Shown one piece after another: positions 5,170 to 27,700 of a DNA stretch of 36,504 bases. The DNA is from Bacteroidales bacterium. GTDB taxonomy: Bacteria > Bacteroidota > Bacteroidia > Bacteroidales > VadinHA17. The position numbers and the translations under genes were made by a program. Every line of letters starts with the position of its first letter. Position 1 is the first letter of the stretch. The stretch covers positions 1 through 36,504 of the forward strand of contig JALONU010000003.1 in the NCBI GenBank assembly GCA_025454775.1, given 5' to 3'. The notes under the pieces were generated by a model. The model did not search any database. It was given only the letters and a program-made list of their open reading frames with translations, and had not been told where the DNA came from.

Positions 5170-6687
5170 TCAGCGGTTATGGACTATCGTCACTGTTCCT
5201 GTTTTCCTGATCTCCCTGCCGGAAGGAGACCTGACAGTGATATACCAGAGATATACACCCTCGGGCTGGGGCATACCGTTGAAAGTCCCGTCCCATGCCT
5301 GGCTGAAGTCTGTTGATTCAAAGACAGCTTTTCTTCTCTGATCGGTTATCAGAAGCCTGTATGAGACAGGTGTAAACGAAAGCATTGGTCTGAACAGGTC
5401 GTTGATGGAGTTGTTGTCGGGTGTGAAAAGATCAGGGATCGTTATTCTTTCAATTGCCGGTATGCAGACAATCTGTGAACGGCTTGTTCCGCTTGCAGTA
5501 TAGGGATTTGATGCTTCCTCAGCTTCTGTAAGGAAACAGATTTCGGGACCGCTTACCTCATTCATCAGGCTTGTGTATGGGATAGTTAAAGATGTGTCTG
5601 ATGATGACAGCACATATCTTTCCTCAAATTGCTGCCCTGTTTTTGCATGGATCCTGTAATCAGCCACACCCCCGTTCCAATCAGAATATTTGTTCCAGGA
5701 AAGGGTAATATCCTCATTGTTGCTTTTCACCGATAGTACAATGTTGGAAGTTATGTTTGACTCTGTGATTGGCTTGTTGCAGCTGTTCACCGCCTTCAGT
5801 CTCCAGAAGTTGACTTTTGTCACATCAGCCTCTTTGTCAGAATACATGATTGTCCCGGTAATCCCTGAGAAACCCCTGATCCTTTCAAAGCTGCTGCTGT
5901 TCCATGATTTTCTCTCAAGATCATATGTTCTGATTTCCGAGAGCGGATCGGGAGTGAATGAAAGGAGTATCCCGTTATCCGGGGAAACAGTTGCATAATC
6001 AGCATTTATCCAGTCGGGAGGTCTCTGCATTTTAGTGATAATGCAGGACTGGTTCGACTCCGAGTACAGACCCCCTGTCAATTCTGCCCTTACGAAAAAG
6101 CAATACCTGTCGTTTACGGTAAAATCGTCAAGGGCTATACTTGTTGTTCCTGCTGCTGATGACAGGGTGTTGTCAAAGCTCCCTCCGTTCACAGAATAGA
6201 AGATTCTGTAACTCTCCACAGCCCCTTGTGCCGGTGCATAGCCCGTCCACTTTACATCAAGCCTCCTGTCGCAGGTGTCGATCTCTACAGATGAATGTAT
6301 TGTGCTCAGCATATTTGAAAGCGGGCTGATGTTTCCGGCTGTGTCGAGGGCTGACACTACGAAAGATTCACTGTAATAGGCGGACCCTGAACCTGTTCTG
6401 ATCCACGTGCCTGCAGCGGGATCATAAATGGTGTCGAGCTCATAACCTTCGTTGTCCCTGTACAGGTAAATTACATACCCTGAAACATCGGGCGAAGGAC
6501 TCGGCGACCATGAAATTTCCACATTGCCGCTGAGCATGTCGACAGATACCAGGTCGAGCACGGGCGGGAGAGGAGGATCAGTGTCTTCCTGTGCATTGAT
6601 GACGGACAGCGCCGATATCAGCAATATTGGTATCAATGCAATTCTTACAAACACTTTCATAAACAGATTACGCTGCATCTGCCTCAC
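5170..6687 (-). CDS. Fibronectin III-like secreted protein with type IX secretion type B sorting domain
   Basis: This 505-residue protein has a signal peptide (MKVFVRIALIPILLISALSV, cut near INAQ), three to four tandem Ig/fibronectin type III-like repeats (about residues 38-410, with phrases such as VEISWSPSPSPDVSGYVIY and DITLSWNKYSDWNGGVADYRI), and a C-terminal domain (about 415-505) reading IPDLFTPDNNSINDLF, then AWDGTFNGMPQPEGVYLW, then GTVTIV. That last domain is the gliding-motility-associated / type IX secretion type B sorting signal. The protein should cross the outer membrane by type IX secretion and be attached to the surface or released. No catalytic domain is visible, so it may act as an adhesin or structural protein. 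The ATG at 6660 (residue 10) is an equally good start. It lies upstream of relA/spoT on the same strand but is probably transcribed separately. Confidence 0.85.
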   Translation of the reverse strand: MRQMQRNLFMKVFVRIALIPILLISALSVINAQEDTDPPLPPVLDLVSVDMLSGNVEISWSPSPSPDVSGYVIYLYRDNEGYELDTIYDPAAGTWIRTGSGSAYYSESFVVSALDTAGNISPLSNMLSTIHSSVEIDTCDRRLDVKWTGYAPAQGAVESYRIFYSVNGGSFDNTLSSAAGTTSIALDDFTVNDRYCFFVRAELTGGLYSESNQSCIITKMQRPPDWINADYATVSPDNGILLSFTPDPLSEIRTYDLERKSWNSSSFERIRGFSGITGTIMYSDKEADVTKVNFWRLKAVNSCNKPITESNITSNIVLSVKSNNEDITLSWNKYSDWNGGVADYRIHAKTGQQFEERYVLSSSDTSLTIPYTSLMNEVSGPEICFLTEAEEASNPYTASGTSRSQIVCIPAIERITIPDLFTPDNNSINDLFRPMLSFTPVSYRLLITDQRRKAVFESTDFSQAWDGTFNGMPQPEGVYLWYITVRSPSGREIRKTGTVTIVHNR

Positions 6688-15400: not shown

Positions 15401-16925
15401 AATCGAATGTCCCCAGCACGTCAAACCTGATGTTCCTGTCATTTATGCTGATGTCGCCGTCCCATGTTTTCTCACTGAAACGGCCGTTCAGGGACACATT
15501 CCTGTATATATAGCTGTTCAGTTCAATGCTGTCGATCCGGCCCGAGATATTTCCGCTGAACCTGGTCTCGGGAGATGCATAGCCGTCAATGTCGGCCCTC
15601 ATTGCCAGGTTGCCGAACATTTCGGGGTTGTCGAGAAGCCTGCCGAGAGAGATTCCGCTGCCTCTCACAAATCCTTTAAGCCTGAAACTGTTCTTCTCAC
15701 CCGGCCGCACCGATACATCAGTGCTCAATGTTCCGCTCTCACTCCTCAGGTTGCCATAAGCCACAAAGTCGGAAAGGAAACCGGTAAAGCTTCCATTGAA
15801 GGTTATTGTCCCAAGGGAGTTGAAAAGTTCAGGTATGACTATCTTCTTTTTCCCTGCAGTTTCTATTTCGCCGATTTCGGCTGCGCTGGTTCTCAGCCTG
15901 CTGATACCTAGGTAAATGAAAGAGTTATCGATGTCGGGAAGGCCAGACACGTCAAAGTCGCAGAGGATGCTTGTCAATTCGCCGAACGATATGTCGATGT
16001 CCCGTCCTCTCAGCTCGGCTACCGTGCCTGAAACTTTTCCGGAGATCCTGACCGCCTCATTCACTTTTTCAGCTGGAGGCACAAAGTACTTAAGGTCGGA
16101 TGAAGAAACGAGTGATTTTCCGAGACTTATGTCCATCCTGACCTTCCTGGTGAAATCGGAAAATGAACTTGCAGAGTCTCCGATGAGTCCGACCTTTTCA
16201 ATTTCAATAAGGCTGCTGTCGCACTTTATGGTACCACCGTGGAAGAGGAGATCGTTTTTTGCCAGCCTGACTCCGCAGTTCATCTCCTTTACGGTGAATC
16301 CTGCAGATTCAATGAATGAGAGCTCAGTAATATTGAAACGTGTTGTATCGTCGCTGATCAGGAAGTCCTCCAGCGTTCCATTAATATTATTAAGGTTTAG
16401 ATTATTGAAGTCAGTTGCGATCAGGCTTTTTTCCCTATAGGTGTTGACCAGGGAGAACTTTCCATCTGTAACCGAGATCTCGCTTATGCTCAATACCATG
16501 CTTTTGCTGCCGCCGGGAGACCTGAGCAGTTCCAGATACCATTGCAGGTTCATTTCGCCGGTGCTGTCCGTTATAAAGGAAACTACAGGACGACTCACCG
16601 TGATCCTGCCAAAACGGAGACGGCCGTTCTTCAGATCTGACTTCCTCAGGAATAATGTTGCTTCTGCGGCGTATATGAGCGTGTCGCTGTTCCTGTCCCT
16701 GATAAGAAGATCGTCTATCGAAAGCCGGTTAAAGAAAAGATACCTTACACTGCCGACCGAAATCGAGGAGCTTACCCTTTCCGATATATGGCTTGTTATC
16801 CTTCTGACAGCCATTGTCTGAACTGCCGGGATCCTGATAATGGAAAACAGGATCGTAGGCAGGATGATCAGTATGCCTGCAATTATGAATAGATACTTAT
16901 ATGATTTTTTAATACTTTTGGCCAT
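12459..16925 (-). CDS. TamB-like / AsmA-like translocation and assembly protein (DUF490)
   Basis: This very large protein (1488 residues) has an N-terminal membrane anchor (about 10-32, YLFIIAGILIILPTILFSI), a long body of beta-strand repeats with no enzymatic motif, and a C-terminal TamB domain (about 1090-1440), including GSGNLNISLNREGEFKISG, then YLFTLKNIL and RISFNGDI. TamB-type proteins form a hydrophobic groove spanning the periplasm and move phospholipids, or help insert proteins, to the outer membrane. The ATG at 16925 faces tsaD across a 60-bp divergent promoter region, an arrangement I recall from other Bacteroidota. exbB-exbD-tonB follows in the same direction. No TamA/BamA-type barrel gene is adjacent. 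The C-terminus is Lys/Arg-rich, unlike the final aromatic residue of barrel proteins. Confidence 0.9.
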   Translation of the reverse strand: MAKSIKKSYKYLFIIAGILIILPTILFSIIRIPAVQTMAVRRITSHISERVSSSISVGSVRYLFFNRLSIDDLLIRDRNSDTLIYAAEATLFLRKSDLKNGRLRFGRITVSRPVVSFITDSTGEMNLQWYLELLRSPGGSKSMVLSISEISVTDGKFSLVNTYREKSLIATDFNNLNLNNINGTLEDFLISDDTTRFNITELSFIESAGFTVKEMNCGVRLAKNDLLFHGGTIKCDSSLIEIEKVGLIGDSASSFSDFTRKVRMDISLGKSLVSSSDLKYFVPPAEKVNEAVRISGKVSGTVAELRGRDIDISFGELTSILCDFDVSGLPDIDNSFIYLGISRLRTSAAEIGEIETAGKKKIVIPELFNSLGTITFNGSFTGFLSDFVAYGNLRSESGTLSTDVSVRPGEKNSFRLKGFVRGSGISLGRLLDNPEMFGNLAMRADIDGYASPETRFSGNISGRIDSIELNSYIYRNVSLNGRFSEKTWDGDISINDRNIRFDVLGTFDFSRELPEFDFSLNLAQADLYRLNFDKDDTTSHLSLLATANFRGTNIDNLDGEIRLLNSTLRRNGNTLDMYDFSVKAFTENGRPAISLRTDFADADLRGVYSFQGLGSLVKRGLASMMPSKFIPPELSEEQGKNNFSFSINLKNTDKLNSFFRTGLLVAEKSSISGSVLSDTAMILNAASRSVSYGGFTFKNLTLDAGFESPELNMRLGTSAVSLPGQTELKGFNASLGTVPDNFIFRVNWDNREEVLNKGDFTARGSFTGSEVSDANPVLNIRIDPTEVYSRNKLWKLSPAVLGIDTSSVMISKLYISNGDNYYLIDGKVSSDRTDTLHLQFRGIDISWLNGLMDRNKKEDQLSLSIKGMLNGNVFLSDLFNRPLAEGDLTINRFSVLQADYGDLSVNMLWNSDRKVADIHAYNNLQGRKMIDVTGNYDPTRKAIDISATAEKLPLDALNPLLKFFASGITGTGSGKVRISGETKNLNLEGAVMAENSSLKVDYLQTRYRLNDSIRFTKDGINFRNIRVTDERGNSAVLNGAVRHNHLKDYRADLTITTNETMVLNTRPKDNDLFYGTAFATGVTTIKSGPESLSFDVSAKTGRNTKFYIPLNSSETVSDYSFITFVTQDTSASSAADQAAKPLAQNTSGIELKFDLEVTPDAEVQLIFDPKVGDIMKGHGSGNLNISLNREGEFKISGDYIIEDGDYLFTLKNILNKPFSVEEGGRISFNGDIDNAEIEMKAIYKLKASLYEILKDENYREKIPVECQINLSGKLFNPVVSFNIYLPMADEETRTYLKNVITTEEELSRQFLYLLVMNSFYADPSYGSSLTSTTTTGTSAMAVTTTEMLSNQLSNWLSQISNDFDIGVSYIPGQKNFNDQEVQVALSTQLLDDRVVINGNLDVRGTGGVSDNTDQLTGDFDIEYKPKFSDKIRFKVFNRFNNPYTGKQSQYTQGFGIFFRQEFDKFSDLFKRKKKPETPKIDDRQSEGK

Positions 16926-16985
16926 TGATCAATTAAAAAATCAGTCACCAAAATAACCTAAAATATACCGAAATACAAAGTCCTG

Positions 16986-17999
16986 ATGGCAGTTACAATC
17001 CTTGGCATAGAATCATCCTGTGACGATACTTCTGCTTCGGTCGTCCGTGACGGCTTCCTTCTGTCGAACCTGATCGCTGGTCAGGAGATCCACAGATCGT
17101 ACGGAGGAGTCGTTCCGGAACTGGCCTCAAGAGCACATCAGGCAAACATCGTGCCGGTTGTAGATCAGGCCCTGAAAAAAGCCGGTGTTGGCGCCGGAGA
17201 GATAAACGCTGTTGCATTTACGCGTGGTCCTGGCCTGCTTGGTTCACTGCTTGTGGGAACCTCGTTTGCGAAGGGTTTCAGCCTTGCCCGTGAGATACCC
17301 CTGATCGAGGTGAATCATCTCCAGGCACATATCCTCGTTCATTTCATCAGGCAGGATGGAAGTGAGGGACGACTTCCCGGATTCCCGTTTCTCTGCCTGC
17401 TTGTTTCAGGGGGGCATACCCAGATCATTGTCCTTAAAAGCCATCTCGAAATGGAGATACTCGGAAGCACCATCGACGATGCTGCGGGAGAAGCATTCGA
17501 CAAATGCGGTAAGGTAATGGGATTTCCATACCCTGCCGGACCGGAAATTGACAGGCTGGCTGCCACAGGGAATAAAAAGGCATTTACGTTCGCAAGACCT
17601 CATATCAGGGGTCTCGACTTCAGCTTCAGCGGGTTAAAGACAAGTTTTCTGTACTTCCTGCGGGACATGTTGAAGGAAGATCCCGCCTTTATTGACAGGA
17701 ACAAGCCAGACCTCTGTGCTTCGCTCCAGAGCACAATCGTGAATATACTTGTGTCCAGGCTGGTGAAGGCAGCTGGGGAGACAGGGATCAGAGAGATCGG
17801 TATTGCAGGAGGCGTGTCAGCAAATTCCGGTTTAAGAAATGCAGTGACGGCAGAAGCTGCTAAAAGGAACTGGAACCTCTTCCTCCCGGCACTTAGCTTT
17901 ACAACGGACAATGCTGCAATGATAGCGATAACAGGGTATTACAAATATCTTGCACGAGAATTCTCGGGGCAGGACGTAATTCCCCTGGCAAGGATTTGA
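16986..17999 (+). CDS. tsaD: tRNA N6-threonylcarbamoyladenosine transferase
   Basis: TsaD transfers the threonylcarbamoyl group to A37 of ANN-decoding tRNAs (t6A), together with TsaB and TsaE, which are not in the window. The 337-residue protein has all family marks: ILGIESSCDDTS, VVPELASRAH, the metal-binding pair H111 and H115 in NHLQAH, LLVSGGHTQ, STIDDAAGEAFDKCGK, FSFSGLKT, GGVSANSGLR and TDNAAMIA. Length and start (ATG at 16986) are normal. The start lies 60 bp from that of the divergent tamB-like gene. The SiaC-like gene follows about 70 bp downstream with its own candidate promoter. Confidence 0.98.
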   Translation: MAVTILGIESSCDDTSASVVRDGFLLSNLIAGQEIHRSYGGVVPELASRAHQANIVPVVDQALKKAGVGAGEINAVAFTRGPGLLGSLLVGTSFAKGFSLAREIPLIEVNHLQAHILVHFIRQDGSEGRLPGFPFLCLLVSGGHTQIIVLKSHLEMEILGSTIDDAAGEAFDKCGKVMGFPYPAGPEIDRLAATGNKKAFTFARPHIRGLDFSFSGLKTSFLYFLRDMLKEDPAFIDRNKPDLCASLQSTIVNILVSRLVKAAGETGIREIGIAGGVSANSGLRNAVTAEAAKRNWNLFLPALSFTTDNAAMIAITGYYKYLAREFSGQDVIPLARI

Positions 18000-18462: not shown

Positions 18463-19374
18463 TCAGTAGGCCAGTATCCGGCTTTTCTCCCTGCCCGAAC
18501 CTTTAATCCATATCTTGTTGCTGTAAACATCAACAACTGCAAAGCTGTTTTCCGCAGCGGTTTCCACCATCCCTTTCATTGTGATGAAATGGATCTGGTT
18601 GAAATTGCCATAGCTGCCGGCATGATTGTGTCCGCTGAACCATGCTATTATGTTATGGTAATTCAGCAGAAGTGTATTTATATCCTTGTAATTGAGCAGG
18701 TTATGCACATTATCGGGCCACACTGGGAAGTGACACAGGATAAATACTCCCTGTTCTGCTGCTGCAGCTTCGTCGAGCTGGGTCTTCAGCCATCCGATCT
18801 GACTTTCGCTGATCCCTCCGTTCCATTCCATTGCGTTCACCGCTCCCGATTTTCTCAGCCCCGCAAGGTAATTCGCATTCAGATCCCTTGATTTCCGGCT
18901 CAGTGCTGCATATGTGCTGACCTCATTGCCATCAAGGACAATGAAGCGGAAGCTCCCGCAGCTGAAGGAATAATACCCTTTTCTTCCCGGGGTATCCAGG
19001 GGGAGCTTTTTCTTCATCCTTTCATCAACAGAGAAGTCATGGTTGCCTCTCACATGGTATACTCTCAGCCCTGAAGACCCCAGGATGTCAAGCATAGGAC
19101 CAAAGGATTCGTAACCACGATCGATCAGGTCGCCAAGGTTGATAACAAAACTTACGGAATCATTCCTGAAGACTCCGACAGCTTCCTGAAGCTTCTCTTT
19201 TGAGAGGTTGTAATACCTTGTTCCTTCAGGACTGCAGTCACAGTACTGAACGTCAGCAACGATGCCGAAGGAAAACAGCGGTTTTTGTCCTTTCAGCTCA
19301 GACATAAAAAAAGGCATTGAGAATAATACAAGTGAGAACACCGATCGCCAGGCCGCTTTTCTGAAATAGTTCAT
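18463..19374 (-). CDS. Exported calcineurin-like phosphoesterase, ADPRibase-Mn (ADP-ribose/CDP-alcohol diphosphatase) type
   Basis: From the ATG at 19374 the protein has 303 residues with a signal or anchor segment (about 8-29). It then has the binuclear-metal phosphoesterase motifs in order: D41-x-Q43 (IVADVQYCD), GDLID (81-85), GNHD (110-113), H215 in CHFPVW and GHNH (248-251). The surrounding text (QEAVGVF, RYYNL, NGGISESQIGWL, VETAAENSFAVVDVY, KGSGRE) resembles the Mn-dependent ADP-ribose/CDP-alcohol diphosphatase (ADPRM) family closely. Members cleave ADP-ribose, CDP-choline and related diphosphates; the real substrate is unknown. The signal sequence places it in the periplasm or on the membrane, unlike the cytosolic animal enzymes. 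The TTG at 19449 is rejected because the ATG at 19374 begins the signal peptide. It follows the J-domain gene by 16 nt and may end the rnf transcription unit. Confidence 0.85.
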   Translation of the reverse strand: MNYFRKAAWRSVFSLVLFSMPFFMSELKGQKPLFSFGIVADVQYCDCSPEGTRYYNLSKEKLQEAVGVFRNDSVSFVINLGDLIDRGYESFGPMLDILGSSGLRVYHVRGNHDFSVDERMKKKLPLDTPGRKGYYSFSCGSFRFIVLDGNEVSTYAALSRKSRDLNANYLAGLRKSGAVNAMEWNGGISESQIGWLKTQLDEAAAAEQGVFILCHFPVWPDNVHNLLNYKDINTLLLNYHNIIAWFSGHNHAGSYGNFNQIHFITMKGMVETAAENSFAVVDVYSNKIWIKGSGREKSRILAY

Positions 19375-19390
19375 TCGTGATACTTTCCCG

Positions 19391-19954
19391 TTATTTAACT
19401 TTTCCCCTTCTTTTCCTTGAAGATTCGATGTATGATTTGAGGAAAACAATTGATGCGATAAAAAGGATCATGCCAACAGAGAGAAGCACCAGAAAAACGA
19501 TCACCGTAGGATTCTCTGCGTCGGGGAGGGGATGATTCAGCCTGTAAATATAACCTATGATTGTATAGAGTACGATTATAACCGAGATGGTGGTTGCGAA
19601 GATTATGGTTGTGCCATCGAGTATCCTTGTTGTTTTATATAACCTGGTTTTCTGGAATCTGGCATACGATGCCCTGGCGTAAGCATTGGCTCTTCTTCTC
19701 GCCATGTCCTGCCTGTACCTCCTCCAGTTCTCCATAGCCTGCCTGTAGACTTCTTCATCATACTCATCCATACCATAATGGGCTATCAGGAATTCATAGG
19801 CTTCAGTTGCCTGAATGAACATTTCCTTTGCATCGGGAGCATGGTTGATGTCGGGATGATACATCCTCGCCTTTAACCGGTATGCCTTTTTGATCTCGTC
19901 GATGGAGGCACCGGCTTCAAGCCCGAGTAAACGGTAATAATCAGAGGATGTCAT
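19391..19954 (-). CDS. Membrane-anchored J-domain protein
   Basis: The 187-residue protein begins with a J-domain (about 1-65) carrying the essential HPD tripeptide in [16 protein letters not shown], so it should stimulate an Hsp70/DnaK ATPase. An Arg-rich amphipathic stretch (about 85-105) follows, then two membrane helices (about 113-137 and 148-170) and a basic tail. It lacks the Gly/Phe and zinc regions of DnaJ, so it is a specialised type III J-protein working at the inner membrane. It lies 38 bp after rnfA and 16 nt before the phosphoesterase gene. The start codon (ATG at 19954) sits inside a perfect 12-bp inverted repeat, and a perfect -7 element overlaps the repeat edge. A role in assembling the neighbouring membrane complex is possible but unproven. 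Confidence 0.85.
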
Positions 19955-19981
19955 ATTATCGGAGGGGATGATAATATGACA
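19949..19981. repeat. Perfect 12-bp inverted repeat over the J-domain gene start
   Basis: TGTCATATTATC and GATAATATGACA form perfect 12-bp arms around a 9-nt loop (GGAGGGGAT on plus, ATCCCCTCC on minus). The start codon of the J-domain gene lies in the downstream arm, and the -7 element TAACTTTG overlaps the upstream edge. It could be a repressor operator or an mRNA hairpin that hides the start codon; the loop CCTCC could also pair with ribosome-binding sequence. A rough count makes a 12-bp perfect repeat with a loop this short unlikely by chance in 36 kb. Confidence 0.75.
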
Positions 19982-19987
19982 AAGTTA
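19980..19987 (-). promoter_or_regulatory. -7 element upstream of the J-domain gene
   Basis: TAACTTTG on the minus strand is a perfect TAnnTTTG in the 38-bp gap after rnfA. No -33 TTG is seen. If real, transcription starts near 19975, inside the inverted repeat, allowing the last two genes to be expressed apart from rnf. Confidence 0.4.
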
Positions 19988-19992
19988 GTGAT

Positions 19993-20568
19993 TTATTTGA
20001 CTATGCCGGTGAAGCCCATGAAAGCAAGGGCCAGGATGCCTGCTATCACAAGCGAAAGGGGAACTCCCTTCATCCCCTTCGGAACATCGGCAAGTTCAAG
20101 CTGTTCCCTTATGCCTGCAAGAATGATGAGGGCCAGGCCGAAGCCGATGGCTGTGGAGGCTCCGTAGACAACTCCTTCGAGGAGATTGTAATCCTTCTTA
20201 ATCACCAGGATGGCAACGCCCAGAACGGCACAGTTGGTCGTTATCAGCGGAAGGAAGATCCCGAGAGCCTGGTAAAGCGGCTGGCTGATCTTCTTCAGGA
20301 TTATTTCCACCATCTGTACAAGGGCGGCTATGACAAGAATAAAGGTGATTGTCTGCATAAACCCTATACCCAGCTTTTCAAGTATATATGTCTGGATCAG
20401 GTATGTCACCATCGTAGCAAGCACGATAACGAACGTTACGGCCCCTGACATCCCCAAAGCTGTATTAACCTTGTTGGAAACACCCAGGAAGGGGCATACT
20501 CCCAGGTATTGTGCCAGGACCACATTGTTTATGAAAACTGCTGATATTACTATAAGTATATATTCCAT
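19993..20568 (-). CDS. rnfA: Rnf complex subunit A
   Basis: RnfA is one of the two related integral-membrane subunits of the Rnf ferredoxin:NAD oxidoreductase, which drives Na+ or H+ export. The 191-residue protein has about six membrane helices. It keeps the two half-repeat cysteines that bind the intramembrane iron-sulfur centre with RnfE: LAQYLGVCPFLGVS and ITTNCAVLGVAI. Length matches the family. It is the last rnf gene, 12 nt after rnfE. The downstream J-domain gene follows after 38 bp that hold a promoter motif and an inverted repeat. Confidence 0.97.
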   Translation of the reverse strand: MEYILIVISAVFINNVVLAQYLGVCPFLGVSNKVNTALGMSGAVTFVIVLATMVTYLIQTYILEKLGIGFMQTITFILVIAALVQMVEIILKKISQPLYQALGIFLPLITTNCAVLGVAILVIKKDYNLLEGVVYGASTAIGFGLALIILAGIREQLELADVPKGMKGVPLSLVIAGILALAFMGFTGIVK

Positions 20569-20580
20569 GGCCTGCCTTTT

Positions 20581-21162
20581 TTAAGCTTTCTTCAACCGGT
20601 TTACAAGGGCTATCATATATCCAAGGACGATGAATGCACCCGGAGCGAGGATAAATACGAGGATACCGTCGCCTGAGATAAATTTAAATCCGAATATGGA
20701 ACCGCTTCCAAGTATTTCACGGATTGCACCCATGATGCCCAGTGCTATCGTGAATCCAAGACCCATTCCCAAACCGTCCCAGAACGATGAGAGGACAGAG
20801 TTCTTGCTGGCAAAGGCTTCCGCCCGTCCGAGGACTATGCAGTTCACGACTATCAGGGGAATGAAAATTCCCAGCGTTTCGTAGAGTGAAGGCACGTACG
20901 CCTGCATTACGAGGTCCACGATTGTCACAAATGAGGCTATGATGACAATGAAGGCAGGGATTCTGACTTTGTCTGGTATCACCCCTGACAGGAGAGCGAT
21001 CACAACGTTCGATCCAATGAGAACGAATGTCGTTGCCACGCCCATCCCCAAACCATTTAGAGCCGATGAGGTGGTCGCGAGAGTAGGGCAGGTGCCCAGC
21101 ACCAGTACCAGTATCGGGTTCTCTTTGATAAAACCTTTTGTAAAATTCTGAAGCTGATTCAT
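20581..21162 (-). CDS. rnfE: Rnf complex subunit E
   Basis: RnfE is the membrane partner and paralogue of RnfA. The 193-residue protein has about six hydrophobic helices and the paired cysteines in VLGTCPTLATTS and VVNCIVLGRAEAFA that hold the iron-sulfur centre in the membrane. Its ATG overlaps the rnfG stop (ATGA, 4 nt). It has an unusually strong ribosome-binding site (AAAGGAGG), which is also the end of the rnfG coding sequence. This coupling fits fixed subunit ratios in the complex. Confidence 0.97.
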   Translation of the reverse strand: MNQLQNFTKGFIKENPILVLVLGTCPTLATTSSALNGLGMGVATTFVLIGSNVVIALLSGVIPDKVRIPAFIVIIASFVTIVDLVMQAYVPSLYETLGIFIPLIVVNCIVLGRAEAFASKNSVLSSFWDGLGMGLGFTIALGIMGAIREILGSGSIFGFKFISGDGILVFILAPGAFIVLGYMIALVNRLKKA

Positions 21163-21734
21163 TTAATGCCTCCTTTCTGAAGAGTGTTATAGGCGCGCTG
21201 CACTGCATCGCAGAACGCTCTTGAACTTATGGTGGCTGCCGTTATTGCATCAACGGGTCCTCCGTCCTTTTTGACCCTCAGCTGAAATGATTCAGGATTC
21301 TTGTTCATGAACTGGTCCTTGAACCCGGGATCAGCCATTTTGGTACCCAGGCCGGGGGTTTCTTTCTGGGAAAGGACGGAGACATTTATTATTGTTCCAT
21401 CCGGACTGAAGCCAGCCATCAGGTTTATATATCCGCTGAAGCCTTCATTGGTAAAAGTGTTCACGGCATAGCCGATTATCTCTCCGTCCTTCTTTGCCGG
21501 GTATACCTCGAGGCTGTCGCCTTCATCCGTGGCCAGCATGAACATCTCTTCGTTGGGATTGTTCGTGAATTCCGGTACAACTTCCCTGATGGCATTAAGC
21601 TTCTTGTTCAGCACCGAAGCTGCAATGGGTTCTTTTGTCAGTTCGTAAACAAATCCCAGTCCTGCCGATGCTCCCAGCGCTATCAGCGTCAGCGACAGTG
21701 CCATGTTCCTGAAGGTAGATTCAGTCTTAGCCAT
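21159..21734 (-). CDS. rnfG: Rnf complex subunit G (covalent FMN)
   Basis: RnfG is anchored by one N-terminal helix (about 10-30) and carries FMN linked to a threonine in a periplasmic domain. The flavinylation motif reads DAITAATIS, giving T168 as the FMN threonine; the more usual text is S/T-G-A-T, so the second position is Ala here. ETPGLGTKM and the FMN-binding domain core are present. Length is 191 residues. The ATG overlaps the rnfD end by 8 nt and the stop overlaps the rnfE start by 4 nt, typical of this operon. No apbE flavin transferase gene lies in the window. Confidence 0.96.
   Translation of the reverse strand: MAKTESTFRNMALSLTLIALGASAGLGFVYELTKEPIAASVLNKKLNAIREVVPEFTNNPNEEMFMLATDEGDSLEVYPAKKDGEIIGYAVNTFTNEGFSGYINLMAGFSPDGTIINVSVLSQKETPGLGTKMADPGFKDQFMNKNPESFQLRVKKDGGPVDAITAATISSRAFCDAVQRAYNTLQKGGIK
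21169..21176 (-). promoter_or_regulatory. Strong Shine-Dalgarno site of rnfE
   Basis: AAAGGAGG on the minus strand stands 6 nt before the rnfE ATG, inside the end of rnfG. Bacteroidota genes usually lack such strong sites, so its presence at this overlapping junction is notable, though the Lys-Gly-Gly codons of rnfG partly dictate it. Confidence 0.6.
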
Positions 21735-22728
21735 TTTTCACAACCTCCCCGAATCTTTTTGGTTTGATATATGCATTCATAAGAGGAACAAATGCGTTCA
21801 TAATAAGGATAGCAAAGGAAACTCCCTCAGGGTATGCGCCCCAGACCCTGATGATCACCGTCAGTATCCCTATTCCGCAGCCGTAGATTATCATAGCCCT
21901 GGGATTCATCGGTGAAGTGACATAATCAGTAGCCATGAATATTGCCCCGAGCAGAACGCCTCCGGCAAGAAGATGGAAAACAGGATCCATGTTCTTTTCA
22001 GGATTTACCAGCCAGAGGATGGAGGTGAAAATGACAATGCTACCTATCACGGAAACAGGGACGTGCCATGTTATTATCTTTTTCCAGAGCAGGTAGATAC
22101 CTCCCAGGATGAGAGCTGCTGCGGCAACTTCACCCATAGAGCCTCCCATATTGCCGAGAAACATCCGGGCAGGTGTTGGTATCTGGGCCAGAAGCTGTTG
22201 TATGGGCTCTCCGTTCTTCAGACCTTCCTTGACGATAGCCAGAGGCGTAGCACCTGTAACAGCATCGAGGTAACCGGTAGCAAAACCTTTTGGGACAGGC
22301 CAGCTTGTCATTTGAACGGGGAAAGAGATAAGCATGAAAACACGTCCGACAAGGGCTGGATTGAAGGGATTGTTGCCCAGACCCCCGAAAGTCATCTTCG
22401 CTATCGCTATCGAAACGAACGCGCCTATTATGATTATGAAAACCGGCAGGTTCGAGGGAACGTTGAACGCAAGGAGCAGGCCGGTCACCACTGCCGAAAA
22501 ATCATTTATTGTTATCTGTCTGCGGAAGACGAATCTCTGGATGAGGTATTCAAATGCCACGCAGGAGAGTACAGAGACAGCTGTTACAATAATGGCCCCG
22601 TAGCCGAAGTAGAAAACGGATGCGAACAGGGCCGGCACCAGCGCAATGATAACCCCCAGCATCAGTTTCCGGGTCGTCTCTTTCCCGTAGACATGAGGAG
22701 AAGGGGATACATTTAATAAATTGCTCAT
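21727..22728 (-). CDS. rnfD: Rnf complex subunit D (covalent FMN)
   Basis: RnfD is a polytopic membrane subunit related to NqrB. The 333-residue protein has about ten hydrophobic segments and the covalent-FMN motif TGAT in DAVTGATPLAIVKEG, giving T161 as the flavin threonine. Other conserved stretches are GLGNNPFNPALVGRVFML and ATDYVTSPMNPRAM. It passes electrons between RnfC/RnfG and the membrane iron-sulfur centre. It starts 13 nt after rnfC, and rnfG begins within its last codons. Confidence 0.97.
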   Translation of the reverse strand: MSNLLNVSPSPHVYGKETTRKLMLGVIIALVPALFASVFYFGYGAIIVTAVSVLSCVAFEYLIQRFVFRRQITINDFSAVVTGLLLAFNVPSNLPVFIIIIGAFVSIAIAKMTFGGLGNNPFNPALVGRVFMLISFPVQMTSWPVPKGFATGYLDAVTGATPLAIVKEGLKNGEPIQQLLAQIPTPARMFLGNMGGSMGEVAAAALILGGIYLLWKKIITWHVPVSVIGSIVIFTSILWLVNPEKNMDPVFHLLAGGVLLGAIFMATDYVTSPMNPRAMIIYGCGIGILTVIIRVWGAYPEGVSFAILIMNAFVPLMNAYIKPKRFGEVVKNG

Positions 22729-22741
22729 GTGGGTATGTTGC

Positions 22742-24076
22742 TTATTTTTTTGTTACTCTTTCACGTGCCATCCTTATTACCGTTGATTTTCCCAGCCGGA
22801 TATAATCAAGAAGCGGTCGGCTTGCCGGGCATTCAAAGCTGCAGGAACCGCATTCCATACAGTCGGTGATCCTTTCCTGTTCCGCCTTCTCAAAGAGACC
22901 TTTCTCCGAGAGGGTCATCAGCAGGTAAGGTTCCAGCCCTATCGGGCATACCGAAACACACCTGGCGCATCTGATGCAAGGTCCGGCTTTGCTCCTGGAA
23001 GAATCACTTTTCGGAAGAACCACTATCCCGGAAGTTCCCTTAACGACAGGCACTTCTGTATTGGCCAGCGCCTTACCCATCATCGGCCCTCCCGACAGGA
23101 TCTTGCCAGTGTCTTCCGGCAGACCGCCTGCAGCCTCAATAAGCCTGCTCACCGGGGTTCCGGTTCTTACAAGGTAATTGCCGGGCCTGGCAAGGGATTT
23201 TCCTGTAACCGTCACTATTCTCTCGAACAGAGGCTTGTTCTTCTGAACGGCTTCATATACTGCAAAGGCAGTTCCGACGTTATGGACCACGCTGTTTACA
23301 TCCAGGGGAAGCTTCCCCGAAGGTACTTCCCTCTTTATCAGGGCTCTGATAAGCTGCTTTTCAGCTCCCTGCGGGTATTTAACTTTCAGCGGGCACACTG
23401 TTATGCCCTGAAAGGCTGATGCCAGCCTCGTCATATGTTCTATAGCATCCTTCTTATTGCTTTCTATGCCCACCAGTGCCCTGGTAACGTTAAGGGCCTT
23501 CATCAGTATTGTGGTTCCGATCAGAACTTCTTCGCCACGTTCAAGCATAAGCCTGTGGTCGGAGGTAAGGTAAGGTTCACATTCGACGCCGTTAATGATA
23601 AGCACATCGCATTTCTTGCCGGCAGGGACCGTAAGCTTGACATGAGAGGGGAAAGTTGCACCTCCCATTCCCACAATTCCAGATGCAGAGCATTTTTTGA
23701 CTATCTCTTCCTGCGACAGGCTGATGCCGGTGACTATTTCTTCGCTTCTGTCTATGCTTTCGATCCATTCATCTCCTTCGACATCAATGAATACTGCAGT
23801 CTGCCTGTACCCTGTTGTGTCTATTATCGTATCGATCTTGCTTACCTTTCCCGATACTGACGAATGTATGAAAGCTGAAACAAAACCTTTACCTTCCGCA
23901 ATTGCCTGTCCGGTTCTGACACTTTCTCCCTTGCTGACTATGACGTTTGCCGGCGCTCCGATATGCTGAGAAACCGGGATCACCACGCTTTTTGGCAGGG
24001 GAAGAACCTCTGTCGGGCAACCTGCAGTAAGCTTGCTCTCCGGTGGATGAACACCTCCTTTTGGAAATGTTTTCAA
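22742..24076 (-). CDS. rnfC: Rnf complex subunit C (NADH-binding, iron-sulfur)
   Basis: RnfC is the soluble NAD(H)-binding subunit. The 444-residue protein has an N-terminal RnfC domain (GGVHPPESKL), a lipoyl-like fold region (GFVSAFIHSSVSGKVSKI), the nucleotide-binding part (GMGGATFPSHVKL, INGVECEPYLTSD), an SLBB-like segment, and two 4Fe-4S motifs near the end: CIRCARCVSVCP and CMECGSCSFECP. The start is TTG at 24076: there is no in-frame ATG between the upstream stop and the conserved GGVHP, and the encoded KTFPKGGVHP matches the normal N-terminus. A perfect AAAGGAGGTG lies just inside the gene but encodes KGGV. rnfB ends 24 nt upstream. Confidence 0.96.
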   Translation of the reverse strand: MKTFPKGGVHPPESKLTAGCPTEVLPLPKSVVIPVSQHIGAPANVIVSKGESVRTGQAIAEGKGFVSAFIHSSVSGKVSKIDTIIDTTGYRQTAVFIDVEGDEWIESIDRSEEIVTGISLSQEEIVKKCSASGIVGMGGATFPSHVKLTVPAGKKCDVLIINGVECEPYLTSDHRLMLERGEEVLIGTTILMKALNVTRALVGIESNKKDAIEHMTRLASAFQGITVCPLKVKYPQGAEKQLIRALIKREVPSGKLPLDVNSVVHNVGTAFAVYEAVQKNKPLFERIVTVTGKSLARPGNYLVRTGTPVSRLIEAAGGLPEDTGKILSGGPMMGKALANTEVPVVKGTSGIVVLPKSDSSRSKAGPCIRCARCVSVCPIGLEPYLLMTLSEKGLFEKAEQERITDCMECGSCSFECPASRPLLDYIRLGKSTVIRMARERVTKK

Positions 24077-24100
24077 TTCTTTATATTTTTTTATTCGACA

Positions 24101-24970
24101 TCATGGTTTAACGGCTGCGCCTTCAGGTTCTGCTTCCGTTTTTGCTTTCCTGGGAGGGAAGTTGATCTCAAGTATGGAACCGGTGGGGCATTCGGTCACG
24201 CATTTCCTGCAGAAGGTACATTTGTAGGAATCGATGTAGGCCAGGTTATTCGCTATGGTTATTGCCTCGAACTTGCACACATTGAAGCACTTGTTACATG
24301 CTATGCAGGCTACCTTGCAGGCTCTCCTGGCCGGACCTCCCTTATCGCAGTTCTGACATGCCACGTAGATCTTGCGGTCTTTTTTTGCTTTCTTTCGCAG
24401 TTCCAGAAGGTGGCGCGGACATGCTTTGACACACGCTCCGCAGGCAGTGCATTTATCATCAATTATTTCAGGCAGCCCGGTAACCGGATTCATATGAAGG
24501 GCATCGAATGTACACGCTCTTTCACAATCCCCGTAACCGAGGCACCCATAGCTGCAGTCGGTCTCGCCAAGGTACAGGCTGTGAGCTATGCGGCAATCAG
24601 GCACTCCGTCATATTTTGTGTTATGAGGTCTGAATTCCGGTGATCCGTTGCAGAGGAGAACCGCTACGGTTGGTTCAACTGCAACTGCTTCTTTTCCCAG
24701 TATCCTTGCAGCTTCTGCCATCACGGGCGCTCCTCCAACCGGACAATTGAGTCCTTCGAAAGTCTCAGCCTTTACCAGTGCTTCCGCGAAATTCCTGCAT
24801 CCTGCAAAACCGCAGCCTCCGCAGTTGGCTGCCGGCAGGACTGCCTGGACCTCGTCGATCCTGGGATCTTCATAAACCTTGAATTTACTGGCGATAAAGT
24901 ACAGGATCACTGCTGATAACAGTGCCAGCAGACTCAGGGTAACAATTGTTATAATGATTGTAATGCTCAT
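24101..24970 (-). CDS. rnfB: Rnf complex subunit B (ferredoxin-accepting, multi iron-sulfur)
   Basis: RnfB receives electrons from reduced ferredoxin. It has one membrane anchor (about 3-27), a 4Fe-4S domain (NCGGCGFAGC with C50, C53, C58, C76), then a cysteine-dense ferredoxin region: C139-C153 (YGCLGYGDCERAC), CTACGACVKACP, a long CQNCD...CIACNKCFNVC stretch and CTFCRKCVTECP. I count 25 cysteines in 289 residues, enough for several clusters and more than short proteobacterial RnfB proteins carry. The ATG at 24970 is chosen over a TTG directly before it. It starts 3 nt after the rseC stop. The C-terminus is a short acidic/basic tail. Confidence 0.97.
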   Translation of the reverse strand: MSITIIITIVTLSLLALLSAVILYFIASKFKVYEDPRIDEVQAVLPAANCGGCGFAGCRNFAEALVKAETFEGLNCPVGGAPVMAEAARILGKEAVAVEPTVAVLLCNGSPEFRPHNTKYDGVPDCRIAHSLYLGETDCSYGCLGYGDCERACTFDALHMNPVTGLPEIIDDKCTACGACVKACPRHLLELRKKAKKDRKIYVACQNCDKGGPARRACKVACIACNKCFNVCKFEAITIANNLAYIDSYKCTFCRKCVTECPTGSILEINFPPRKAKTEAEPEGAAVKP

Positions 24971-24973
24971 CAA

Positions 24974-25396
24974 TCAGTATTTTATGGAGAAGTTGATTTT
25001 CTTTTCTATACGGTGCCTCAACAACCTTAAAATCCCGTACCAGGGGGCAAGGATTGCCAGTGAGAACAACCCTGCGGGGAGTTCCGGGACATCCAGTGAG
25101 ATAAGAACCACCAGTGATGTCACTACCAAAATGAGAGGAATAACATAACCCAACAGCAGGGCGGCATAACCGTCTGACTGCTTCATGAGCACTTTCACTC
25201 TGTCTCCGGGATTTACCTGATAGGATCCTGCTATGTCAACGAGTTTTTCCTTCTTGCCCGATAGGGAGCACGATCCTTCCCCCTGGCATCCGCTGCAGGC
25301 AGATGCTGAAGTTATTCTGACAGTTACGTGGTCGCTGCCTGAAGACTGTATTATTCCGTCGTGCTCTATAGTTTCCATTCCTGCTGCGAAGGACAT
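24974..25396 (-). CDS. RseC/SoxR-reducing family protein, first gene of the rnf operon
   Basis: This 140-residue protein has the RseC layout: an N-terminal soluble part with clustered cysteines (SACSGCQGEGSCSL), a short beta domain (VNPGDRVKVLM), two membrane helices (about 78-99 and 104-122) and a basic tail. In E. coli RseC sits in the inner membrane and acts with the Rnf-like Rsx complex that keeps SoxR reduced. In Bacteroidota it commonly heads the rnf operon, as here, and is probably an accessory factor. The cysteines may carry a metal or cluster. rnfB begins 3 nt after its stop. Its start codon lies in one arm of a short hairpin. Confidence 0.88.
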   Translation of the reverse strand: MSFAAGMETIEHDGIIQSSGSDHVTVRITSASACSGCQGEGSCSLSGKKEKLVDIAGSYQVNPGDRVKVLMKQSDGYAALLLGYVIPLILVVTSLVVLISLDVPELPAGLFSLAILAPWYGILRLLRHRIEKKINFSIKY

Positions 25397-25407
25397 CGGA
25401 ATGTCCT
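25390..25407. other. Short inverted repeat at the rseC start codon
   Basis: AGGACAT and ATGTCCT (7-bp arms, 4-nt loop) place the rseC ATG in the downstream arm of a possible mRNA hairpin. Seven-base repeats arise by chance many times in a window of this length, so the significance is doubtful. It is noted because the J-domain gene at the other end of the cluster has a similar but far stronger arrangement. Confidence 0.3.
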
Positions 25408-25421
25408 GAAAAATCCGAGTG

Positions 25422-25429
25422 CAAATTTA
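25422..25429 (-). promoter_or_regulatory. -7 element of the rnf operon promoter
   Basis: TAAATTTG on the minus strand, a perfect TAnnTTTG, lies 25 nt upstream of the rseC ATG in the 114-bp gap after recG. No TTG lies at the usual -33 distance. It is the best candidate for the rnf operon start. Confidence 0.45.
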
Positions 25430-25510
25430 CAATTCCTGCAAAATGTAATTCTGCCATTTATCATTTTTTGCGGACACCTTATTATTTATTCTGATTATAA
25501 ATAACTCCCG

Positions 25511-27616
25511 TCAGCTTATGTTGCTCCACGATTGTTTTTTGCTGAAAAGTCTTTTCATCTCAGCAGCCAGAATGCTGTTCTCATTCTTCTCGAGAAGAGG
25601 ATCATTTTCAAGGATCTCGCCGGCAATATTCCGTACATATTCGATTACCTGCCCGTCCCTGCTAAGACTCGAGATTTTAAGGTCAAAAGGTATTCCGCTC
25701 TGCTGGGTCCCCTCGATATCCCCGGGCCCTCTGAGCTGCAGGTCAGTCTCGGCGATCTCAAATCCGTCGTTGGTCTTTACCATTACCTCAATCCTGGCTG
25801 CAGCTTCCTTTGAAAGCTTCCCGGATGTCATCAGGATGCAATATGACTGTTCAGCGCCTCTTCCAACTCTGCCCCTGAGCTGGTGCAGCTGCGAAAGGCC
25901 AAATCTCTCGGCGCTTTCGATGACCATTACCGAGGCATTCGGGATATCGACGCCTACCTCTATAACGGTTGTGGCAATGAGGATGTGTGCTTTTCCTTCC
26001 CTGAACAGGTTCATTGAGGCTTCCTTGACCGCAGGTGTCATCCTGCCATGAACGACACTTATACAGTATTCCGGCGGCGGAAAGACACGTGAGATAGTAT
26101 CCCACCCGTCCTCGAGGTCCTTGTAGTCCATTTTCTCGGATTCCTTGATCAGGGGATAGACGATGTAAACCTGTCGTCCACCGGCTATCTGGCTTCTCAG
26201 GAATCCGAAGACCTTGTTTCGCTGCGATTCGGGGTAATGCATTGTCCTTACCGGTATTCTTCCCGGAGGAAGCTCATCGATAACCGAAACATCAAGGTCG
26301 CCATAGAGCGTCATAGCGAGTGTCCTGGGTATTGGTGTGGCAGTCATTACAAGAACATGGGGCGGATTGAGGCTTTTCTGCCAAAGCTTTGCTCTCTGTT
26401 CCACGCCGAACCTGTGCTGTTCATCAATGACAACAAGCCCAAGGTTGTCGAACCTTACGTTCTCTTCTATCAAAGCGTGGGTACCTATAAGTATGTTAAG
26501 CGACCTGTCGAGCAGCGATTCTTCAATTTCCTTTCTGAGCGACTTTCTGGATGACCCGGTAAGGAGATGCACCTTCATGTCCATACCTTTCAACATCTTA
26601 GTTATCGTTTCAAAGTGCTGTGCAGCAAGTATTTCAGTTGGCGCCATAATGCAAGCCTGATAGCCGTTGTCGATGGCTATCAGCATGCTCATTAGTGCCA
26701 CCAGCGTCTTGCCGCTTCCAACGTCACCCTGGAGCAGACGGTTCATCTGCCTGCCTGATCCGAGATCCTTGCGGATCTCTTTCATGACTTTTTTCTGGGC
26801 AGTTGTCAGTTCAAAGGGAAGGTTGTTGAAGTAGAAGGTGTTGAACTTTTCACCTACAGTTGAGAATACGAAACCCTTGTACTTTCTTATCCTGTTATTC
26901 CTGAACCTCAGCAGGTTAAGCTGTATGTAGAATAGCTCCTCGAACTTAAGCCTGTACCTTGCTTTTTCAATTTCCTCCGGCACAGATGGAAAATGGATGT
27001 TCCTGAGAGCTTCGTTAAGATCGGTAAGCTTGTATTTTGCAAGCATCCAGGGAGGGAGACTTTCAGGGATACGGAAGGTCATCTGTTTTATCAGCGTGCC
27101 CATAAGCCTGCCAATGGCCTTTGAACCCAGGAAGTGATCCTTAAGTTTTTCGGTGGTACTGTACTGGGCCTGGAGCGCTGAAACCAGGCGCTCTGCAGCT
27201 TTCCCGGCCGATTCGATCTCGGGGTGGATGATGTTGATCATGCCATTGAAAATGCCGGGCTTCCCGAATACAATGTACTCTGTCCCGGGCGTGTAGGTCT
27301 GGGTTATCCACCTGACACCCCTGAACCAGACCAGCTTCACCGAACCGCTCTCGTCCCTGAAATCTGCAACGAGTCTCTTACCCGTCCCGCGGCCTTCAGT
27401 CGAATATCCGGCGATCTTACCTTTTATCTGGACGTTTGGAAGATCCGGATCAAGCTCCGAGATCCTGTAGAATTTTGTCCTGTCGATGTATTTATAGGGG
27501 AAATGCCAGAGGAGGTCGCGGTAGGTGTAAATACCAAGCTCGCTGTTAATAAGTTCCGCTCTTTTGGGACCTACACCGGGCAGATAGGTTATGCTTGTTT
27601 CGAGAAAATCGTGCAT
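25511..27616 (-). CDS. recG: ATP-dependent DNA helicase RecG
   Basis: RecG remodels stalled forks and Holliday junctions. The 701-residue protein has an N-terminal wedge/OB domain with YLPGVGPKRAELI and FPYKYIDRT, then the helicase core: Walker A QGDVGSGKT, motif II VIDEQHRFGV, motif III TATPIPRTLA, LPPGRIPV, the motif V region TTVIEVGVDIPNASVM and motif VI QLRGRVGRG. All are intact. The ATG at 27616 (MHDFLETSITYL) is preferred to a GTG two codons upstream. The divergent methyltransferase starts about 84 bp away. The rnf operon follows after 114 bp containing an AT-only 8-bp hairpin and the rseC promoter motif. Confidence 0.97.
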   Translation of the reverse strand: MHDFLETSITYLPGVGPKRAELINSELGIYTYRDLLWHFPYKYIDRTKFYRISELDPDLPNVQIKGKIAGYSTEGRGTGKRLVADFRDESGSVKLVWFRGVRWITQTYTPGTEYIVFGKPGIFNGMINIIHPEIESAGKAAERLVSALQAQYSTTEKLKDHFLGSKAIGRLMGTLIKQMTFRIPESLPPWMLAKYKLTDLNEALRNIHFPSVPEEIEKARYRLKFEELFYIQLNLLRFRNNRIRKYKGFVFSTVGEKFNTFYFNNLPFELTTAQKKVMKEIRKDLGSGRQMNRLLQGDVGSGKTLVALMSMLIAIDNGYQACIMAPTEILAAQHFETITKMLKGMDMKVHLLTGSSRKSLRKEIEESLLDRSLNILIGTHALIEENVRFDNLGLVVIDEQHRFGVEQRAKLWQKSLNPPHVLVMTATPIPRTLAMTLYGDLDVSVIDELPPGRIPVRTMHYPESQRNKVFGFLRSQIAGGRQVYIVYPLIKESEKMDYKDLEDGWDTISRVFPPPEYCISVVHGRMTPAVKEASMNLFREGKAHILIATTVIEVGVDIPNASVMVIESAERFGLSQLHQLRGRVGRGAEQSYCILMTSGKLSKEAAARIEVMVKTNDGFEIAETDLQLRGPGDIEGTQQSGIPFDLKISSLSRDGQVIEYVRNIAGEILENDPLLEKNENSILAAEMKRLFSKKQSWSNIS

Positions 27617-27700
27617 ATTCACAACAGCTGCAGTACAATCAAAAAGATGATCGAAAATACTTATTTTTACGATCCTTACCTAATTAAATGTTTTCCGGAA

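Follow-up and report, generated by a model that had tools for sequence, protein, structure and literature searches.

The closest described systems are hairpins of phage T4. According to the excerpt of PMC2988022 used here, only the read-through messages of I-TevI, soc and e carry the inhibitory hairpin whole; for I-TevI, the promoter is immediately upstream, and the transcript made from it is without sequence needed for the hairpin. The T4 hairpins enclose the translation start region. In the fold-back inhibition of IS10, the read-through RNA for the transposase folds over the start region, and the transcript of the gene itself begins within the repeat. RNA thermometers of the ROSE and fourU types likewise have a stem over the translation start.

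The hairpin described here, at the start of a gene for a membrane J-domain protein (J), resembles those of T4 in that the translation start region is inside it. The proposed layout would also be alike: a read-through RNA would carry the hairpin whole, and, as for I-TevI, the predicted position of the J promoter would exclude part of it from J's own transcript. Unlike in T4, the J hairpin is on a bacterial chromosome rather than a phage, no timing programme is known for it, J has no Shine-Dalgarno sequence and what the stem hides is the start codon, the predicted start would remove no more than half of the 5′ arm, and silencing is what we infer. The resemblance to IS10 consists of a read-through fold over the start region and a predicted own start inside the repeat, although no transposon was seen at J, which looks like an ordinary chromosomal gene.

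The hairpin over the start codon of J

The window, by which we mean the whole stretch of 36,504 nucleotides analysed, comes from an assembly of 3.28 Mb in 288 contigs. J (19391–19954, minus strand; PF00226, E 8.7e-17) encodes 187 amino acids, and its membrane nature was judged from the sequence. Upstream and co-directional with it is rnfA (19993–20568, minus; PF02508, E 7.9e-59), which was named by family search, while the names of the other rnf genes rest on reading and gene order. Downstream is a calcineurin-like phosphoesterase gene (18463–19449, minus; PF00149), which is perhaps in one unit with J, as their open reading frames overlap. The gap from rnfA to J is 38 nt, the hairpin begins 11 nt after the rnfA stop codon, and a search of the gap for a terminator-like site found none.

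On the mRNA strand, the hairpin consists of a 5′ arm, TGTCATATTATC (19970–19981, minus), a 9-nt loop, ATCCCCTCC (19961–19969, minus), and a 3′ arm, GATAATATGACA (19949–19960, minus), which contains the J start codon ATG at 19954–19952. The arms are complementary at 12 of 12 positions, so that the coordinates bear out the perfect 12-bp repeat across the ATG that a sequence-only reading had reported. The stem runs across the start codon and into the first two codons; that is, the start region is paired within the 3′ arm of a stable hairpin, as in the T4 type. The loop reads as that reading had it, whereas the anti-Shine-Dalgarno-like string seen in it is not conserved; neither the sequence nor the length of the loop is kept in relatives. 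The expectation that chance would supply far below one such repeat also held: Markov models of order 1 and order 2 were used to make 100 copies of the window each, and a copy held a mean of 0.02 repeats with arms of 12 bp or more and loops of 3–30 nt, while the real window contains two. The second perfect 12-bp repeat (16902–16943, 18-nt spacer) lies around the start codon of a large minus-strand gene (16925–12459) and adjoins a divergent gene at 16986. The J start segment (-28 to +9) has the lowest folding energy, -13.4, of the 260 predicted gene starts in sampled stretches of the window genome (348 kb), whose mean is -2.8 (sd 2.5).

At E <= 1e-30, 50 of the 62 genomes of the genus have an orthologue of J. 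Upstream regions were read in 48 of them, G019 and G053 being left out because they matched only from residue 69–72 on, and rows L032–L036 were removed as duplicates. The upstream regions of 24 further loci (L130–L153), which belong to other genera in this family, were inspected; the tests below cover genomes of the genus. The nearest named loci with a J gene are Bacteroidales metagenome-assembled genomes, five of which share upstream sequences with members of the genus. In nine genomes, including that of the window, the gap from rnfA to J is 34–39 nt; we refer to these as the close-gap genomes.

A probable promoter box overlapping the 5′ arm

The sequence TAACTTTG (19987–19980, minus) is a perfect match to the Bacteroidota sigma-A -7 box TAnnTTTG, placed by the sequence-only reading at the upstream edge of the repeat, and its final two bases also belong to the 5′ arm. 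It is likely to be the promoter of J. The 348 kb of sampled window-genome sequence show an enrichment of the box upstream of genes, where it occurs 45 times versus 21 times on the opposite strand. The repeat is also overlapped by a sigma-70-type match on either strand (10 and 9 of 12), part of a set of 20 matches where 10.4 were expected. Since the E. coli-type sigma-70 factor is absent from Bacteroidota according to a passage of PMC7366714, we set this match aside.

In an excerpted account of Flavobacterium psychrophilum, the box is at -12 to -5 (PMC9723704). Transferred to J, this position predicts a +1 at 19975 (minus), the fifth base after the box, with a 5′ UTR of 21 nt; in Bacteroides thetaiotaomicron, most 5′ UTRs are of 23 nt, again according to a passage of PMC7366714. 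Because the predicted +1 is within the 5′ arm, half of that arm would be absent from J's own mRNA: the box position fits the removal of the first 6 of its 12 bases, and the 6 bp nearest the loop remain in the predicted short RNA.

The shortened RNA folds more weakly. Averaged over the nine close-gap genomes, the fold goes from -10.5 to -2.9 once the RNA is shortened to the predicted start. In the window, opening the segment from -10 to +9 costs 14.6 kcal/mol in the read-through RNA versus 3.4 kcal/mol in J's own RNA; with the start shifted upstream by 1, 2 or 3 nt, the latter becomes 3.9, 4.9 or 7.7, and with a downstream shift it is about 3.3. For ten genomes (the close-gap nine and L112), the mean opening energies are 9.8 for read-through and 5.7 kcal/mol for own RNA, with no difference in L016 and little in L112. 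As the other 14 box-bearing genomes differ too (7.8 versus 5.6 kcal/mol), part of this contrast reflects extra sequence, and the contrast is only partly specific.

We favour the reading that the hairpin is a read-through-silencing element as in the late genes of phage T4, and we give it a probability of about one half. RNA polymerase coming from the rnf operon would cross the 38-nt gap and make a message bearing both arms, in which the 12-bp stem would conceal the J AUG and cause poor initiation by Bacteroidota ribosomes. These ribosomes do not use Shine-Dalgarno pairing. The J promoter, which overlaps the 5′ arm, would give a transcript from about 19975, inside the arm; the resulting short message would be without TGTCAT, and its start codon would thus be more easily opened. 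With the message of its own promoter readable and the read-through message silenced, J output would depend on its own promoter rather than on transcription of rnf. A separation of J expression from rnf, as suggested by the sequence-only reading, is plausible.

Work on the phylum bears on this proposal. In Prevotella, reporter protein fell fivefold when the Shine-Dalgarno site was within a structure of -5.2 kcal/mol (PMC3155529), and in Flavobacterium johnsoniae mRNA structure tunes initiation (PMC6847099), as excerpts of these two reports state; therefore, translation in the phylum appears to be sensitive to start-region structure. The excerpt of PMC12428005 contained nothing bearing on precedents for such hairpins. 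If the proposal is correct, it shows how transcription of a neighbouring gene can be kept from affecting a gene in a co-directional bacterial cluster with no terminator between them, in a phylum whose translation starts without Shine-Dalgarno pairing and should therefore be very sensitive to structure at the start codon.

Translational coupling, which ranks next after read-through silencing, is an unlikely alternative that would use the same stem differently: the hairpin would block fresh initiation, and ribosomes ending rnfA 11 nt upstream would help open it, linking J to rnfA translation. Coupling explains the conservation of the hairpin equally, and in nine of nine close-gap genomes the box is 5–6 nt after the rnfA stop. 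However, given the ribosome footprint at termination, the terminating ribosome should only just touch the base of the stem. Coupling also leaves the promoter box within the arm unexplained, and box-like elements persist where J has left rnfA (L011, L013, L025).

Covariation of the arms among relatives

If pairing is maintained, the 5′ half of each genome should fold better with its own 3′ half than with that of another genome. In such a chimera test on the nine close-gap genomes, own halves averaged -10.5 versus -8.4 kcal/mol for mixed ones (z -4.4; 0 of 5000 permutations), and z was -3.7 with the window genome excluded. The result is robust to the extent of the arms and to four of the five split points (z -4.0 to -5.0), the fifth giving z -2.5 to -3.2. 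Sixty-five windows of the same shape, slid through the coding regions of J and rnfA as a control, had a mean z of -0.13 (sd 1.04, minimum -1.9). When the RNAs are cut at the predicted start, z shrinks to between -1.2 and -2.2, and most of the signal is lost. In 15 other box-bearing genomes, the test was not significant (532 of 5000).

Counts of pairs in the alignment of the ten genomes agree in part. In this alignment, 80% of cells were paired versus 73% in shuffles (0 of 500), which is above all slid versions; the covariation score was 0.211 versus 0.112 in shuffles (0 of 500) and exceeded all six slid versions. Doubly changed pairs, of which there were three, were ordinary (208 of 500 shuffles; one slid version had four), and the number of pair types was not unusual (81 of 500 shuffles). 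The inner column pair 17/30 formed in only two of the ten genomes. Of the eight pairs that RNAalifold kept, one was doubly changed, and the program scored covariation as slightly unfavourable (+0.17). Thus, the outer pairs are conserved and do not covary, and the inner pairs covary with shifts and bulges that are ill-suited to a fixed alignment.

The sequence-only reading had suggested comparing homologous gaps and had said that a lack of conserved symmetry and covariation there would count against it; in the nine close-gap genomes, both symmetry and covariation are present. Its start-codon-covering hairpin has fared well, being kept in relatives with compensatory changes beside a match to the Bacteroidota promoter box.

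The same comparison bears on a second possibility raised by that reading, a DNA operator in which a dimeric repressor would bind the palindrome covering the promoter and the start codon. The perfect 12-bp dyad does cover the box and the predicted start, and the outer half-sites are kept in relatives. The inner arms, however, vary in sequence among relatives and mostly retain their pairing, G-U pairs and bulges on one side included; this pattern points to an RNA structure rather than to a protein operator with conserved half-sites. Nor does the site recur: the repeat was found once in the 3.28-Mb assembly with up to 3 mismatches allowed, and searches for its parts, arm and dyad, stayed at control level. 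With 1 mismatch, the arm had 27 matches, including its own two, versus 22 for the control, and the dyad TGTCATA-N10-30-TATGACA occurred once in its own genome and likewise once for the control. We therefore consider an operator more doubtful than coupling.

It could also be that the first transcribed bases of the promoter mirror the start-codon region by chance. About 0.02 such repeats are expected per window and many windows were scanned, and ATGAC is kept at the start even without a hairpin: it stands there in 34 of 48 genomes, including all 13 in which J is behind recG, which are without the hairpin. Against this improbable account, own pairing beats chimeras with the window genome excluded, and the covariation score is above shuffles. 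Moreover, only 1 of the 45 boxes upstream of window-genome genes in the 348-kb sample, namely that of J, is followed by TCATA, versus eight of nine in the close-gap genomes at J (the box itself being exact TAnnTTTG in eight of the nine).

Gene neighbourhood and minor sites

J occurs in three arrangements within the genus: behind rnfA; 2–40 nt behind recG without an assigned box (13 genomes); and in other positions. If the hairpin does insulate J, these varied positions would form a natural experiment on when insulation is retained. For box positions assigned by eye, 10 of the 11 genomes that have a box and rnfA at most 45 nt away show a hairpin (shuffle z <= -2), compared with 2 of the 13 other box-bearing genomes and 0 of 24 without an assigned box. 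The association of hairpin with neighbourhood has a Fisher p of 0.0006, uncorrected for descent, and the choice of the 24 box-bearing genomes, like the cut-offs of 45 nt for the gap and -2 for z, was made by eye with the data already seen; the box positions of L027, L030, L116 and L119 were corrected by hand.

Under a fixed rule, an exact TAnnTTTG 20–28 nt before the ATG, the hairpin is present where the rnfA gap is at most 45 nt in 8 of 8 genomes with the exact box and in 2 of 6 without it; among the remaining genomes it is present in 2 of 34, none of them with an exact box. When the rule is relaxed to at most 1 mismatch, the corresponding figures are 9 of 10 with a box and 1 of 4 without, and, among the remaining genomes, 2 of 6 and 0 of 28. 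Since all eight exact-box genomes also have rnfA directly upstream, the effects of box and neighbourhood are inseparable.

In the protein tree as drawn, the nine close-gap genomes are scattered over its base and thus need not be one recent clade, although the tree is a quick one, with 22 of 46 inner branches open and its root on one distant row. Only 2 independent pairs lie on starred branches, and the link between hairpin and rnfA is thus inseparable from descent.

In the window, the rnf operon sits between recG and J. Compared with window positions 19391–27622, 12 relatives look as if they had lost the block between recG and J and retained the J start, a pattern that fits loss of the rnf operon. 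In these (L006, L010, L012, L014, L015, L018–L021, L023, L024 and L028), J is 2–18 nt behind recG and rnfA was not found. A search at E <= 1e-40 found no rnfA in 12 of the 13 genomes with J 2–40 nt behind recG, whose assemblies are incomplete; a whole-genome search found rnfA-like genes in only 4 of 20 genomes, and a search downstream of J in 17 genomes found none. The fuller version of read-through silencing, in which the promoter-embedded hairpin silences J on rnf read-through, has been maintained by selection while J is behind rnfA and has usually been lost where the operon is absent or the gene is elsewhere, is possible, though we hold it more tentatively than the silencing itself.

An element of the 3′ end of the rnf message, an RNA stabiliser or a weak terminator reaching the J start codon incidentally, is less probable than chance. 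Its position, 11 nt after the rnfA stop, would suit such an element. However, the hairpin shows no U tract and not the GC-rich stem with U tract of an intrinsic terminator, and strong hairpins are kept at J in two genomes in which rnfA is not close (L017, where it is at 103 nt, and L026). In addition, L113, L114 and L123 have rnfA adjoining J with neither an assigned box nor a hairpin. L017 and L026 also count against read-through silencing, as does L126, in which rnfA is close and a box was assigned, yet the hairpin is absent. The hairpin of L026, whose best rnfA match is only 44% identical, is among the strongest start hairpins of the set, with -20.9 kcal/mol when 40 nt upstream are included, and it reaches into the coding region.

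The least probable account is that the J message carries an RNA thermometer or else a stem that a ligand or protein would open: like ROSE and fourU elements, the hairpin has a stem over the translation start, with the start codon inside it, of a chaperone-related gene whose product is a J-domain partner protein, but Rfam gave no family at threshold over 19700–20300 (sR52, with E 0.82, was the one match and is at chance level), J's own RNA should lack half of the 5′ arm and would carry the hairpin only in part, and the heat-opened hairpin of the sequence-only reading is by computation far too stable, its opening energy in the read-through RNA being 16.5 kcal/mol at 30 °C, 13.1 at 42 °C and still 10.8 at 50 °C.

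About 24–35 nt before the J start, a AATAATTCGTTAATTGT-like element that covers the box position and the bases just upstream of it is conserved in L007, L017, L025, L026, L027, L116, L118, L120, L124 and L126; it may be either a promoter variant or another site. As a regulon motif it was rejected, with 18 matches versus 17 for the reversed control in eight genomes at up to 1 mismatch; 4 of the 18 are upstream of J, one further exact match is elsewhere (G008:C33), and two of the eight genomes, that of the window among them, are without any match.

Start hairpins behind boxes are not general in the window genome: in a survey of 714 kb with 53 box-bearing genes including J, the 52 others gave z -1.1 (677 of 5000). 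At one other locus of this genome (L212, about 5825–5860, minus; G000:C135), the last bases of a TAnnTTTG box open a stem, TGATACAT / ATGTATCA, in which the start codon lies, and a co-directional gene ends 85 nt upstream.
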